The notes under the pieces: model-generated
What the model was told of the DNA's origin: nothing
The model's input: only the letters and a program-made list of their open reading frames with translations
The model's database searches: none
Part shown: positions 15,980-54,966 of the stretch, in pieces
Layout of the letters: every line of letters begins with the position of its first letter
How positions within the stretch are numbered: the first letter of the stretch is position 1
Source: Rhizobium sp. BG4
GTDB taxonomy: Bacteria; Pseudomonadota; Alphaproteobacteria; Rhizobiales; Rhizobiaceae
Assembly (NCBI RefSeq): GCF_016864575.1
Contig: NZ_CP044125.1
Span: 3,826,001 to 3,890,000 of the forward strand
DNA length: 64,000 nt
Direction: 5' to 3'
Position numbers and translations under genes: made by a program

Positions 15980-16534
15980 TTACGGCTTCAGCTTCGAGAG
16001 AAACTGGGCAAAGACCATCGTGCCTTCGGGCCAGGGACCGTGGCCGGACTCCGAATTGATATGGCCGGATTCTCCGGCGTCGATCAGCAGCGAGCCCCAG
16101 CTTGCGGCGATGTCATCGGCATGTTCGTAAGTGCCGAAGGGATCGTTGCGGCTGGCGACGGTGATCGCCGGGAAGGGCAGCGGATCGCGCGGATAGGGGC
16201 CGAAGGTCATCAGATGCTTCGGGCGGATATCCGGATTTGCGACATCGGGCGGTGCCACGAGGAAGGCGCCGGCAACCTTGTTCCTGAAATGCGGGATCGC
16301 GTGGATCGTCGAGGGAATGCCGAGCGAGTGGGCGACCAACACGACCGGGCGCGTCGAGGCGTTGACCTCCTCGGCAATGCGGGCGATCCAATCGTCGCGA
16401 ACCGGCTTCGACCATTCGGCCTGCTCGACACGGCGCGCCGTACTCAGCTTGGCTTCCCAGCGGGTCTGCCAGTGATCGGGACCGGAATTGGTGTAGCCGG
16501 GGATGATGAGAATATCTGCGTCTGAGGCTTTCAT
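15980..16534 (-). CDS. RBBP9/YdeN-family serine hydrolase
   Basis: 184 residues starting MKASDADILIIPGYTNSGPD, the typical opening of RBBP9/YdeN alpha/beta hydrolases (IPGYTNSGPDHWQ). The nucleophile serine is in VLVAHSLG; an Asp (ASRNDPFG) and the C-terminal His (SGHINSESGHGPWPEG) complete the triad. These small cytosolic proteins have poorly known substrates. ATG 16534 matches the family N-terminus; earlier codons of the frame do not. Confidence 0.9.
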   Translation of the reverse strand: MKASDADILIIPGYTNSGPDHWQTRWEAKLSTARRVEQAEWSKPVRDDWIARIAEEVNASTRPVVLVAHSLGIPSTIHAIPHFRNKVAGAFLVAPPDVANPDIRPKHLMTFGPYPRDPLPFPAITVASRNDPFGTYEHADDIAASWGSLLIDAGESGHINSESGHGPWPEGTMVFAQFLSKLKP

Positions 16535-16699
16535 GATGCCGCCGATGTGAGAAGGCTTGAACGTTCTGTCAAGGGAAAGCAGGACAAAGGCGGTCAAATT
16601 TGTTATTCTTGGCCATTGCCGGTTGCGGATTTCGTGTCGGCCAGTTCAAAGCCGATGCTTTTTCCGCCGCCGGATGAACGGCTCACGGAGGAGAAAGCC

Positions 16700-17497
16700 A
16701 TGACGGCATTTCATGTCATGACGGGAGCAGGCGAAGCCTACGCGCATCCCGCCATCAACAAGATCAGCATTGACGATGTGTTCGACGCGCTGCGGCGCGG
16801 CCTGGACGATTTTCGCGAGAAGCCGTCTCACTATGTCTTCCTGTGTCTGATGTATCCGATTGCCGGCGTGTTCCTGGCAGTTGCGACATCGAGTGCCAAT
16901 CTGCTGCCGATGATCTTTCCGCTGATCTCGGGCTTTGCGCTGATCGGCCCGATCGCAGCGATCGGCCTCTACGAGATCAGCAAGCGGCGGGAGATGGGCG
17001 AGGACACGTCCTGGCGTCATGCGTTCGACGTGCGCCATTCGCCGGCGCTGCCGTCGATCATTGCCGGCGGCCTACTGCTGTTCGCCTTCTTCGTTGTATG
17101 GCTGGTGGCAGCGCAGACGCTCTATACCAACCTCTTCGGCGACGTCTTCCCGCGGTCGATCGATACGTTCACCGCGCAGATCTTCGGCACGCCTGAGGGC
17201 ATGCAGCTGATGATGTGGGGCAATCTGCTCGGCCTCGCTTTCGCAGTGATCGTGCTGGCGACGACGCTGGTGACGTTCCCGATGCTGCTTGACCGGGATG
17301 TCGGGCTTGTCGCGGCAATGAGCGCCTCGATCCGCGCCACGCTGACTAATCCCATTCCGGTACTGGTCTGGGGCTTCATCATCGCCGCGCTGCTGGTGAT
17401 CGGTAGCATCCCGCTCTTTGCCGGCCTGGCGCTCGTGATGCCGATCCTCGGCCATGCGACCTGGCACCTCTATCGCAAGCTGATCGGACCGGCCTAA
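16700..17497 (+). CDS. DUF2189-family integral membrane protein
   Basis: 265 residues. It starts MTAFHVMTGAGEAYAHPAIN, with GGAGGAG upstream of ATG 16700. The motif 'ISIDDVFDALRRGLDDFREK' in outline, followed by about six hydrophobic helices (VFLCLMYPIAGVFLAV, LLLFAFFVVWLVAA, VIVLATTLVTFPMLLDRDVG), is typical of DUF2189, a membrane family of unknown function often near cytochrome or stress genes. No partner gene nearby clarifies its role. Confidence 0.85.
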   Translation: MTAFHVMTGAGEAYAHPAINKISIDDVFDALRRGLDDFREKPSHYVFLCLMYPIAGVFLAVATSSANLLPMIFPLISGFALIGPIAAIGLYEISKRREMGEDTSWRHAFDVRHSPALPSIIAGGLLLFAFFVVWLVAAQTLYTNLFGDVFPRSIDTFTAQIFGTPEGMQLMMWGNLLGLAFAVIVLATTLVTFPMLLDRDVGLVAAMSASIRATLTNPIPVLVWGFIIAALLVIGSIPLFAGLALVMPILGHATWHLYRKLIGPA

Positions 17498-17526
17498 GCC
17501 TGTCAGTAAGCGTACCGGAACTTTGC

Positions 17527-17568
17527 TGCCTCTCTCAGAGTTGTTTTGTCATGTCTTTGAGGGAGGCA
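17527..17568 (+). promoter_or_regulatory. Hairpin masking the ribosome-binding site of the iron-permease-like gene
   Basis: Bases 17527-17540 pair without interruption to 17555-17568 (14 bp including two G-U pairs) around a 14-base T-rich loop. The 3' arm contains the whole Shine-Dalgarno sequence GGGAGG (17561-17566), 6 bases before ATG 17573. No T-run follows, so it is not a standard terminator. Translational control by temperature, a small RNA or a protein is inferred. Confidence 0.6.
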
Positions 17569-17572
17569 ACTC

Positions 17573-18130
17573 ATGGAAGGTGCGAAGAAGCTTTTCGCGC
17601 ATTTCGCAACGAAGGTGTCGGAGCTGGCAGGTGCGCCGGTTACCTTCGTTCTCGCCGTCATTTCCGTCCTGATATGGGCTTCACTCGGGCCGGTCTTCGA
17701 TTATTCGGAGACGTGGCAGCTGGTGATCAATACCGGCACGACGATCGTTACATTCCTGATGGTTTTCGTGCTGCAGAACGCGCAGACCCGCGATACCCGC
17801 GCCATTCAGGCCAAGCTCGATGAAATCATCCTGACCAGCCATGCCGAGAACCGCTTCATCGGCATCGAGAACCTCGATGAAGACGATCTGAAGCATCTGG
17901 ACCGGCTGGTTGCGAAGGCAGCGAAGGGGCGGACAAATCAGACGAATGGCGATGTGGCGCTGGCGGACGAGCCGAGGAAGCAGAAGGGCAACAAGCGCGC
18001 CCGGGCAGCCGCCGAGCTTAAGATCAGCCAGGCGACCGATAAGCCTGCGGCACCGCGCAAGGCCACTCCGCAGAAGGCGACAGCCGCGAAACCCAAGCCG
18101 CGCAAGCAGAAAGCAAAAACGGCGCCCTGA
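17573..18130 (+). CDS. Low-affinity iron permease family membrane protein
   Basis: 185 residues. The N-terminal ~115 match the bacterial low-affinity iron permease family (Fet4-like): two hydrophobic segments (FVLAVISVLIWASLGPVF and LVINTGTTIVTFLMVFVLQN), then the conserved NAQTRDTRAIQAKLDEII and ENRFIGIENLDEDDL. The C-terminal ~65 residues are a Lys/Ala/Pro-rich tail (KPRKQKAKTAP) of low complexity. Bacterial members are far shorter than yeast Fet4, so transport is unproven. The ribosome site is buried in a hairpin at 17527-17568. Its stop codon lies within a terminator stem-loop shared with purB. Confidence 0.82.
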   Translation: MEGAKKLFAHFATKVSELAGAPVTFVLAVISVLIWASLGPVFDYSETWQLVINTGTTIVTFLMVFVLQNAQTRDTRAIQAKLDEIILTSHAENRFIGIENLDEDDLKHLDRLVAKAAKGRTNQTNGDVALADEPRKQKGNKRARAAAELKISQATDKPAAPRKATPQKATAAKPKPRKQKAKTAP

Positions 18131-18140
18131 GGCGCCGTTT
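18117..18140. terminator. Bidirectional terminator between iron-permease-like gene and purB
   Basis: AAACGGCGCC (18117-18126) and GGCGCCGTTT (18131-18140) form a perfect 10-bp stem with loop CTGA. The loop contains the stop codon of the plus-strand gene. On the minus strand the stem is followed by TTGCTTTC after five consecutive T, making it stronger for purB. Confidence 0.85.
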
Positions 18141-18160
18141 CATTGTGTTGTGACCGGCAA

Positions 18161-19462
18161 TCAGCCGAAGACGCGCTTGAAGATCGTGTCGACATGCTTG
18201 GTGTGGTAGCCAAGGTCGAACTTCTCGCGGATATCGGCTTCGGAGAGCGCGGCGCGCACTTCCTGGTCGGCCAGCAGCTCTTCGAGGAAGTCCTTGCCCT
18301 GTTCCCAGACCTTCATGGCGTTGCGCTGCACGAGGCGGTAGGCGTCTTCGCGGGACACGCCGGCCTGGGTCAGCGCCAGGAGAACGCGCTGGGAGTGGAC
18401 GAGACCGCGGAACTTGTTGAGGTTCTTTTCCATGTTCTCGGGATAGACGACCAGCTTCTCGATGACGCCGGCGAGACGGTTCAGCGCGAAGTCGAGGGTG
18501 ATCGTCGTATCCGGGCCGATGGCGCGCTCGACGCTCGAATGGCTGATATCGCGCTCATGCCAGAGGGCCACGTTTTCCATGGCGGGGACAACCGACATGC
18601 GCACGAGGCGCGACAGGCCAGTCAGGTTTTCGGTGAGAACCGGGTTGCGCTTGTGCGGCATGGCCGACGAGCCCTTCTGGCCCGGCGAGAAGAATTCTTC
18701 GGCTTCCAGCACTTCGGTGCGCTGCATGTGACGGAATTCGATGGCGATATTTTCGATCGACGAGGCAATGACGCCGAGCGTGGCAAAGAACATGGCGTGG
18801 CGGTCGCGCGGGATAACCTGCGTGGAGACCGGCTCCGGGGTTAGGCCGAGCTTGGCGCAGACGTGCTCTTCGACGCGCGGGTCGATATTGGCGAAGGTAC
18901 CGACGGCACCGGAGATCGCGCCCGTTGCGATTTCGGCGCGGGCAGCGACGAGGCGGGCGCGGTTGCGGTCCATCTCGGCATAGAAGCGAGCGAGCGTCAG
19001 GCCCATCGTCGTCGGCTCGGCATGGATGCCGTGGCTGCGGCCGATGCGGACGGTGTCCTTGTGCTCGAAAGCGCGGGTCTTCAGCGCTGCGAGAACGCGA
19101 TCGACGCCGGCAAGCAGGATATCGGCAGCGCGCACCAGCTGCACGTTGAGCGTCGTGTCGAGAACGTCGGACGAGGTCATGCCCTGGTGCACGAAGCGGC
19201 TGTCGGGGCCGACGAATTCGGCGAGGTGGGTCAGGAAGGCGATGACGTCATGCTTGGTGACGGCTTCGATCTCGTCGATGCGGGCAACGTCGAAGTTCGC
19301 GGCACTGCCTTTTTCCCAGATGGTCTTTGCAGCTTCCTTCGGGATGACGCCGAGCTCGGCCAGCGCATCGCAGGCATAGGCTTCGATCTCGAACCAGATG
19401 CGGAACTTGGTTTCGGGCGACCAGATGGCGACCATCTCTGGGCGGGAGTAACGCGGGATCAT
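18161..19462 (-). CDS. purB: Adenylosuccinate lyase
   Basis: 433 residues. It catalyses two steps of purine synthesis: splitting SAICAR to AICAR plus fumarate, and adenylosuccinate to AMP plus fumarate. Motifs are MIPRYSRPEMVAIWS, the FVHQGMTSSDVLDT substrate loop, IGRSHGIHAEPTTMG with the catalytic His, and the flexible signature loop GSSAMPHKRNP. Full family length. It follows a membrane-protein gene and rpe on the same strand and ends at the terminator at 18117-18140. Confidence 0.98.
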   Translation of the reverse strand: MIPRYSRPEMVAIWSPETKFRIWFEIEAYACDALAELGVIPKEAAKTIWEKGSAANFDVARIDEIEAVTKHDVIAFLTHLAEFVGPDSRFVHQGMTSSDVLDTTLNVQLVRAADILLAGVDRVLAALKTRAFEHKDTVRIGRSHGIHAEPTTMGLTLARFYAEMDRNRARLVAARAEIATGAISGAVGTFANIDPRVEEHVCAKLGLTPEPVSTQVIPRDRHAMFFATLGVIASSIENIAIEFRHMQRTEVLEAEEFFSPGQKGSSAMPHKRNPVLTENLTGLSRLVRMSVVPAMENVALWHERDISHSSVERAIGPDTTITLDFALNRLAGVIEKLVVYPENMEKNLNKFRGLVHSQRVLLALTQAGVSREDAYRLVQRNAMKVWEQGKDFLEELLADQEVRAALSEADIREKFDLGYHTKHVDTIFKRVFG

Positions 19463-54713: not shown

Positions 54714-54872
54714 AGCCCCCTCTGTCCTTGCGCCTGAGATTGTTATCCCTTCGGCGAGCGTTTCGATAACGCTTCTCTCCAGAGTTCCGTCTGCCCCTTG
54801 TGGTCCTTTTGCCTGAGAGTTTCCGGGGCGGTTGCTCCTTCGGCACCGGCACTTGCGAACCGGCTTCTCCCA
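54714..54872 (-). promoter_or_regulatory. Tandem glycine riboswitch upstream of gcvTHP
   Basis: On the minus strand two aptamers follow each other. The first (about 54872-54791) has GGGAGAAGCCGG, GCCGAAGGAGCAA and CTCTCAGGCAAAAGGACC. The second (about 54786-54714) has CTGGAGAGAAGC, GCCGAAGGGATAAC and CTCAGGCGCAAGGACAGAG. The GCCGAAGG and CTCAGGC-AAGGAC blocks are the glycine-aptamer cores. A short hairpin (54690-54705) between the aptamers and the start may be the expression platform. The stretch 54873-55040 holds no gene. Confidence 0.95.
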
Positions 54873-54966
54873 ACAAGGTCGCGGCAATTATCGGGCGGAA
54901 CGGGTTGTTGGCAAGGGGGAATGTCGCCGCCGAACAAATTTTTGTCGCGGCATCACGGCGCAAATT

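Follow-up and report, generated by a model that had tools for sequence, protein, structure and literature searches.

Within the window, by which we mean the whole 64,000-nucleotide stretch of Rhizobium DNA analysed here, two genes on the plus strand enclose the feature of interest. The upstream gene (16700-17497) encodes a DUF2189 membrane protein (PF09955, Pfam E 2e-37 for the reading frame run from 16697), and the downstream gene (17573-18130, with its ATG at 17573) encodes a small membrane protein of 185 amino acids belonging to the low affinity iron permease family (PF04120, Pfam E 6e-45). Calling the latter an iron-permease homologue, as the original prediction did, is right at the family level, with the function being putative. 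The DUF2189 gene ends 75 nt before the ATG of the PF04120 gene. A scan of 16400-18250 revealed no terminator between the two genes, and read-through from the first into the second is therefore expected. The only terminator-like hairpin on the plus strand in this range is found at 18117-18140 and is common to the convergent purB gene. A sigma-70-type scan of the same range found no promoter for the DUF2189 gene, and its transcription is thus assumed.

In front of the PF04120 gene, a 5' arm (TGCCTCTCTCAGAG, 17527-17540, plus strand), a T-rich loop of 14 bases (17541-17554) and a 3' arm (CTTTGAGGGAGGCA, 17555-17568) can form a hairpin, in which 14 of 14 positions are paired and no bulge interrupts the stem. 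Twelve pairs are of the Watson-Crick type and two are G-U pairs (17533-17562 and 17538-17557). Because the 3' arm includes the SD sequence AGGGAGG (17560-17566), the hairpin buries the ribosome-binding site (RBS), and the uninterrupted 14-bp stem with its T-rich loop is found just as it had been described. The folding energy is -22.3 kcal/mol for arm, loop and arm, and -41.9 for a stretch of 121 nt (z -2.36, with 4 of 200 shuffles folding equally well). There is no T-run 3' of the stem and the terminator scan was negative at the hairpin, in agreement with the earlier view that it is not a standard intrinsic terminator.

The original prediction correctly took the hiding of the RBS as real and meaningful; it missed that half of the hairpin is promoter, and its suggestion of temperature, iron or a trans-acting RNA as the key is not supported (see below). 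The sequence GGAAC-N17-AGTT at 17517-17542 corresponds to a general-stress promoter of the sigma-EcfG (RpoE2) type with the -35 element GGAAC (17517-17521), a spacer of 17 bases and the -10 element AGTT (17539-17542), all on the plus strand. Spacer and -10 contain the 5' arm, which reaches two bases into the -10 element. In R. etli the sigma-EcfG consensus is GGAAC-N16-CGTT (PMC3892343), and in Rhizobium NT-26 the RpoE2-type consensus is GGAACN16-17cgTT (PMC6011840). These consensus sequences match the motif before the PF04120 gene in both elements and in the 16-17 base spacing, with the -10 of the window, AGTT, departing from the consensus CGTT. All 115 orthologues of the genus have the motif GGAAC-N16/17-[AC]GTT in front of the gene. 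They were obtained from 120 genomes, two of which contain no match, while three others (G029, G034, and G036) were dropped because they contain only weaker, paralogue-level matches. The spacer has 16 bases in 61 and 17 bases in 54 of the orthologues, and the -10 element reads AGTT in 58 and CGTT in 57. The search also admitted spacers of 15-18 bases and GGTT; only spacers of 16 or 17 bases came up. As background, 74,692 bases further upstream did not contain a single match. The genome encodes NepR and has this motif in front of its PhyR gene as well, which served as a positive control. Across the genome, 79 matches to the motif with a following GGAG (including three end-of-contig duplicates and one nested match) compare with 18 for the reversed control.

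The position of the promoter determines where its transcript would begin. A start site in NT-26 was located by 5' RACE, and the study applied the pattern GGAAC-N18-TT-N8-G (PMC6011840). Taking the last G of this pattern as +1, which is our own reading, the start would be nine bases after the TT, at about 17551. In the map of S. meliloti promoters were accepted at 5-12 nt from a start (PMC3616915), and this rule yields a predicted range of 17547-17554, which is entirely within the loop. Therefore, the stress mRNA, predicted from these patterns to begin near 17551, should lack the entire 5' arm.

A loss of the pairing in close relatives would have refuted the original prediction. This was not the outcome: the pairing is retained with compensatory changes in many relatives, not in all. 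The 115 orthologues comprise 109 distinct arm pairs, and in many clades different letters maintain the pairing between the SD region and the spacer plus -10, so that the 5' arm covaries with the 3' arm. Examples are the arms of the window (CCTCTCTCAGAG/CTTTGAGGGAGG), L035 (CCTCCTTCAAAG/CTTTGAAGGAGG), L062 (CCTTCATCGGC/GCCGATGAGGG), and L060 (CCTTCCTCGG/CCGAGGAAGG). Arms from the same leader pair better than arms exchanged between leaders, in 70 thinned representatives (z -9.1) as well as in 40 (z -6.6) and 23 (z -4.7), with 0 of 20000 permutations in each case. When only the letters of the spacer were shuffled, the pairing of the window had p = 0.002 (500 shuffles), and among the 109 leaders 41 had p<0.01, 55 p<0.05, and 52 p>0.05. 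The stem is thus not universal, and in the leaders of the relatives the promoter motif is better conserved than the hairpin. None of the 52 spacers of other stress-promoter pattern matches in the same genome equals the spacer of the window in pairing with its SD region. Compared to 52 control spacers, 16 of 30 thinned representatives beat all of them, 8 more exceed the control mean, and 6 do not.

Covariation was also assessed in an alignment of 34 rows (35 minus L111, which belongs to another clade). Here, 79.7% of the cells are paired versus 76.3% in shuffled alignments, 21 cells have changes on both sides versus 9.9, and the covariation score is 0.259 versus 0.213, each reached in 0 of 500 shuffles. 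Two of the five measures, the number of pairs with double changes (114/500) and of further pair types (99/500), are not beyond the shuffles. Sliding the partner by +1 in the 34 rows reduces the paired cells to 65.6% but leaves the number of doubly changed pairs at 7, owing to the repetitive arms. In 21 rows, 86.1% of the cells are paired and double changes are found at 7 of 14 pairs (0/500 shuffles each), with further pair types not significant (112/500). These rows were picked by hand from the 34 as diverse and mostly stem-bearing, so this sample leans to structure. RNAalifold predicted 10 of the same 14 pairs from them. L098, whose start was mis-set by the edge of a weak match, was excluded from the alignment and from the test with 52 control spacers, and was kept in the motif, arm-pairing, shuffle, mismatch, gene-order, and opening-cost counts. 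In some leaders (L020, L055, and L065) palindromes are inserted downstream of the promoter and before the SD, and the arms still pair across them. Inserted palindromes such as AGAGCATGATGTCGTCGACATCGTGCTCT are found between -10 and SD in several species (L020, L024, L034, L055, and similar) and are possibly a small mobile repeat.

The best explanation for these observations, and one that we consider likely, is a translational lock that is gated by the start site. The hairpin is probably confined to read-through RNA from the upstream gene and absent from the message that stress induces at the gene's own promoter. RNA polymerase transcribing the DUF2189 gene would run on into the PF04120 gene, and the resulting long RNA, containing both arms, would fold the 14-bp stem and hide the SD, and no PF04120 protein would be made. 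During general stress, RNA polymerase with sigma-EcfG would use the promoter GGAAC-N17-AGTT, which has the 5' arm encoded in its spacer and -10. Starting in the loop at about 17551, this transcript would carry about 22 nt ahead of the ATG, lack the 5' arm and leave the SD free. The same bases would thus be promoter DNA for one transcript and anti-SD in the other, and the protein would be restricted to stress. The sequence itself shows the hairpin, the promoter motif, the gene order, the conserved and covarying pairing, and the lean to G-U on the sense strand; the start site, the read-through, the repression, and the sigma dependence are inferred. Since the stem begins 29 nt past the DUF2189 stop in the window, a ribosome terminating there should not melt it.

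Predicted opening costs of the SD agree with this proposal in most loci. With the stress start placed 7 bases after GTT, the mean cost over 115 loci is 10.0 kcal/mol in the long RNA, 3.9 in the stress RNA, and 6.0 in the long RNA with shuffled spacer. The long RNA exceeds the stress RNA by at least 5 kcal/mol in 61 and by at least 3 kcal/mol in 90 of the 115 loci, and in 10 of them the prediction is reversed, with the SD held tighter in the stress RNA. In the window, opening would cost 16.0 kcal/mol in the long RNA versus 4.3 kcal/mol in the stress RNA (5.5 in a separate calculation), for which some structure at the SD is still predicted.

A hairpin over an RBS could also be opened by a condition, which is how it had been read originally: as an RNA thermometer, or as the target of a small RNA or protein perhaps responding to iron or temperature. 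It would then act in mRNA from a promoter upstream of 17527. In ROSE and fourU RNA thermometers a leader hairpin hides the RBS, as it does in this Rhizobium leader and, with a conserved stem, in many of its relatives. Any such opener would need the long RNA that is also assumed by the start-site-gated lock. Unlike in ROSE and fourU, however, the Rhizobium stem is perfect and GC-rich and is not predicted to melt, and its 5' arm is outside the predicted stress mRNA. To open the SD, a predicted 17.6 kcal/mol would be needed at 28 °C and 14.4 kcal/mol at 45 °C, far from the marginal stability of a thermometer. Correspondingly, the SD would be open with a probability of about 2e-13 at 28 °C, rising to about 1e-10 at 45 °C and to 6e-6 at 75 °C, and the stem is predicted to stay closed over the whole range of 20-75 °C. 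At the gathering cut-offs Rfam contains no thermometer family matching the window, the sole match being a glycine riboswitch elsewhere, and at E<=10 the region 17450-17700 gave only four rows, all of miRNA or lncRNA families far under their cut-offs. Rfam thus gave no regulator at this place. A search for three simple iron-operator patterns found none of them, which is weak evidence against iron as the key. Given the stability of the modelled stem and the Rfam result, an RNA thermometer is unlikely. The broader reading of a conditionally opened hairpin seems improbable as well, considering that the stress promoter provides a way round the stem. Which start site made the mRNA would be the simpler switch, because the 5' arm lies inside a sigma-EcfG motif that is kept in all orthologues.

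The start-site-gated lock needs a source of read-through, for which the DUF2189 gene is proposed. It is located upstream and in the same direction in 115 of 115 orthologues, and in most loci no more than about 65 nt separate its stop from the -35 element. The distances to the nearest ORF are rough, and eight of them are negative because a longer chance frame was picked. The sigma-EcfG motif was not found further upstream in any of the 30 loci for which about 1.5 kb of upstream sequence were at hand. Among 80 named PF04120 loci, DUF2189 is upstream in 12; all 12 have the motif and 8 of them pair at p<0.05. The other 68 named loci include 21 with a motif match and without DUF2189, of which 1 (L146) pairs at p<0.05. 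The contrast between these groups fits the lock but is confounded by descent, and some of the 12 loci are from genomes among the 115. When DUF2189 loci were searched in turn by tblastn, 1 of 30, the best 30 of a longer list, had a PF04120 match beside DUF2189 (L273), and its leader is different. The exception L146 is from R. tibeticum (1424-1476) and has an independent SD-covering stem in a GGAAC-N17-CGTT promoter, with a duplex energy of -26.8 kcal/mol that was not equalled by any of 300 shuffles.

The closeness of the two genes in the relatives, and a stem only 29 nt after the DUF2189 stop, could also mean that the stem belongs to the 3' end of the DUF2189 message, where it would protect or be cut in the dicistronic RNA and would cover the SD as a by-product. 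The mismatch pattern, which indicates sense RNA (see below), suits this reading too. However, it leaves unexplained why, where the stem is conserved, its 3' arm coincides with the SD region and why the 5' arm overlaps the -10, and the stem has no T-run. We therefore regard such a processing element as having only a slim chance of being correct.

Whether the repeat acts as RNA or as DNA can be judged from its mismatches, counted with the register set on Watson-Crick matches alone; the best register is off the SD in some loci (e.g. L017). There are 51 G-U, 27 A-C, and 134 other mismatches in the 85 loci with at least 7 of 11 Watson-Crick matches, 30, 11, and 75 in the 61 loci with at least 8, and 14, 1, and 35 in the 39 loci with at least 9. 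A G-U to A-C ratio of about 1:1 is expected from composition, and as the rows are related the excess of G-U is a lean rather than a probability. Mismatches that are neither G-U nor A-C exceed G-U (75 versus 30, and 35 versus 14). The mismatches thus lean towards sense-strand RNA and away from a DNA operator. Together with the compensatory changes, this preference of G-U over A-C on the sense strand is why the pairing seems to be selected in the longer sense RNA. An inverted repeat that acts in the DNA, as the operator of a dimeric regulator overlapping the stress promoter, would account for the overlap with the -10, and palindromes in DNA covary too. However, such a site would not favour G-U over A-C on the sense strand (30:11 and 14:1), and the -10-to-start distance shifts by tens of bases (from 30 in the window to 65 in both L020 and L055) while the pairing is kept. 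A DNA operator is therefore very improbable.

The leader has no further copies in the 6.4-Mb genome (three contigs), where it matches only itself, and is thus not a dispersed repeat. Among the 75 distinct matches of the stress-promoter pattern, the window ranked third, with its SD cut short. Among the 37 promoter-plus-ORF rows obtained from 50 stretches of its own genome it ranked first. The other 36 rows include two at p<0.05 (L212 with 0.012 and L246 with 0.043), which is about chance. Among the surveyed promoter-plus-ORF rows the arrangement stands out at the PF04120 gene only. Two matches considered as further cases, C2:1136909 and C1:2874996, have no qualifying promoter-plus-ORF row, and a third, C3:251173, has p 0.131. 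The matches are distributed unevenly over the contigs, with 32 of 79 on C1 (4.02 Mb), 12 on C2 (1.61 Mb), and 35 on C3 (0.79 Mb), which is strongly enriched. That the pairing has no function at all, with pyrimidine-rich spacers meeting purine-rich SDs by chance and relatives inheriting the result, would fit the 52 of 109 leaders without pairing excess and the relatedness of the sequences, whose counts are not independent, but is the least probable reading and hardly credible given that the 52 spacers of other pattern matches pair less well, that swapped arms are worse even with 23 representatives, and that the gene ranks first among the 37 promoter-plus-ORF rows surveyed in its own genome.

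Twenty loci (L092, L100-L108, and L110-L119) have a different type of hairpin, GATCCGCATC/GATGCGGATC, around the SD and directly after the -10. If the start rule is applied here, most of its 5' arm falls outside the predicted stress mRNA, in keeping with the logic of the lock. In these sister clades it may have replaced the lock stem. The hairpin is near invariant and therefore offers little covariation, and the duplex between the parts before and after the start was not better than shuffles at p<0.05 in any of 29 loci. Three loci with leaders about 100 nt longer (L081, L088, and L090) retain parts of it.

Read-through protection as such is known from IS10 and IS50. The closest precedents in the way of working are found in phage T4. 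Long early transcripts of gene e (lysozyme) hide the RBS in a stem, and late promoters just upstream produce mRNA without the 5' part of the structure that is well translated, the difference being about 100-fold (PMC3014915). Similarly, the hairpins of I-TevI, segB, and mobE form only on RNA from upstream promoters, and the late-promoter transcript is unable to form one (PMC2988022). In Rhizobium, the pairing of the SD in the long, upstream-initiated RNA that characterises the gene e/I-TevI type is predicted from sequence, and a stress start in the loop, where the motif and the published spacings place it, would yield RNA without the 5' arm. Gene e is a phage gene under temporal control by a phage late sigma factor, whereas the Rhizobium gene is chromosomal and preceded by the motif of a stress sigma factor, and I-TevI, segB, and mobE are mobile endonuclease genes, unlike the Rhizobium gene. 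The lock would thus work like gene e and I-TevI by analogy; it is not a member by descent, and no sequence relation is claimed. In the excerpts of the sigma-EcfG promoter papers drawn on, a spacer complementary to the RBS, as present at the Rhizobium PF04120 gene, is not mentioned. A literature search covering titles and the openings of abstracts, with subscription papers thinly represented, returned no description of this arrangement for a stress gene.

The wider statement would be that one segment serves as spacer and -10 of a stress promoter and as anti-SD lock of the read-through RNA, that compensatory evolution has kept it across much of Rhizobium, that sister clades may have swapped in the GATCCGCATC/GATGCGGATC hairpin, and that the sigma factor gates translation. 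Taken as a whole, this seems to us evenly poised between right and wrong. If true, the choice of the sigma factor would set both the amount and the translatability of a message in a free-living bacterium, in a layout that in the literature sampled has so far been described for phage genes. Operons could then silence a stress gene within a housekeeping transcript without any terminator. A leader hairpin drawn from the genome may be missing from the gene's own mRNA, and promoter and start site should be checked before calling it a thermometer or a riboswitch.

Two minor observations concern the assembly and the remainder of the window. Identical pattern matches are located near both ends of each contig (C1:1421/4004060, C2:4768/1591649, and C3:14803/783219), which suggests untrimmed circular overlaps of about 19-23 kb in the assembly. 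The glycine riboswitch aptamer of the window (Rfam RF00504) is found at 54791-54882 on the minus strand with a score of 60.6 bits.
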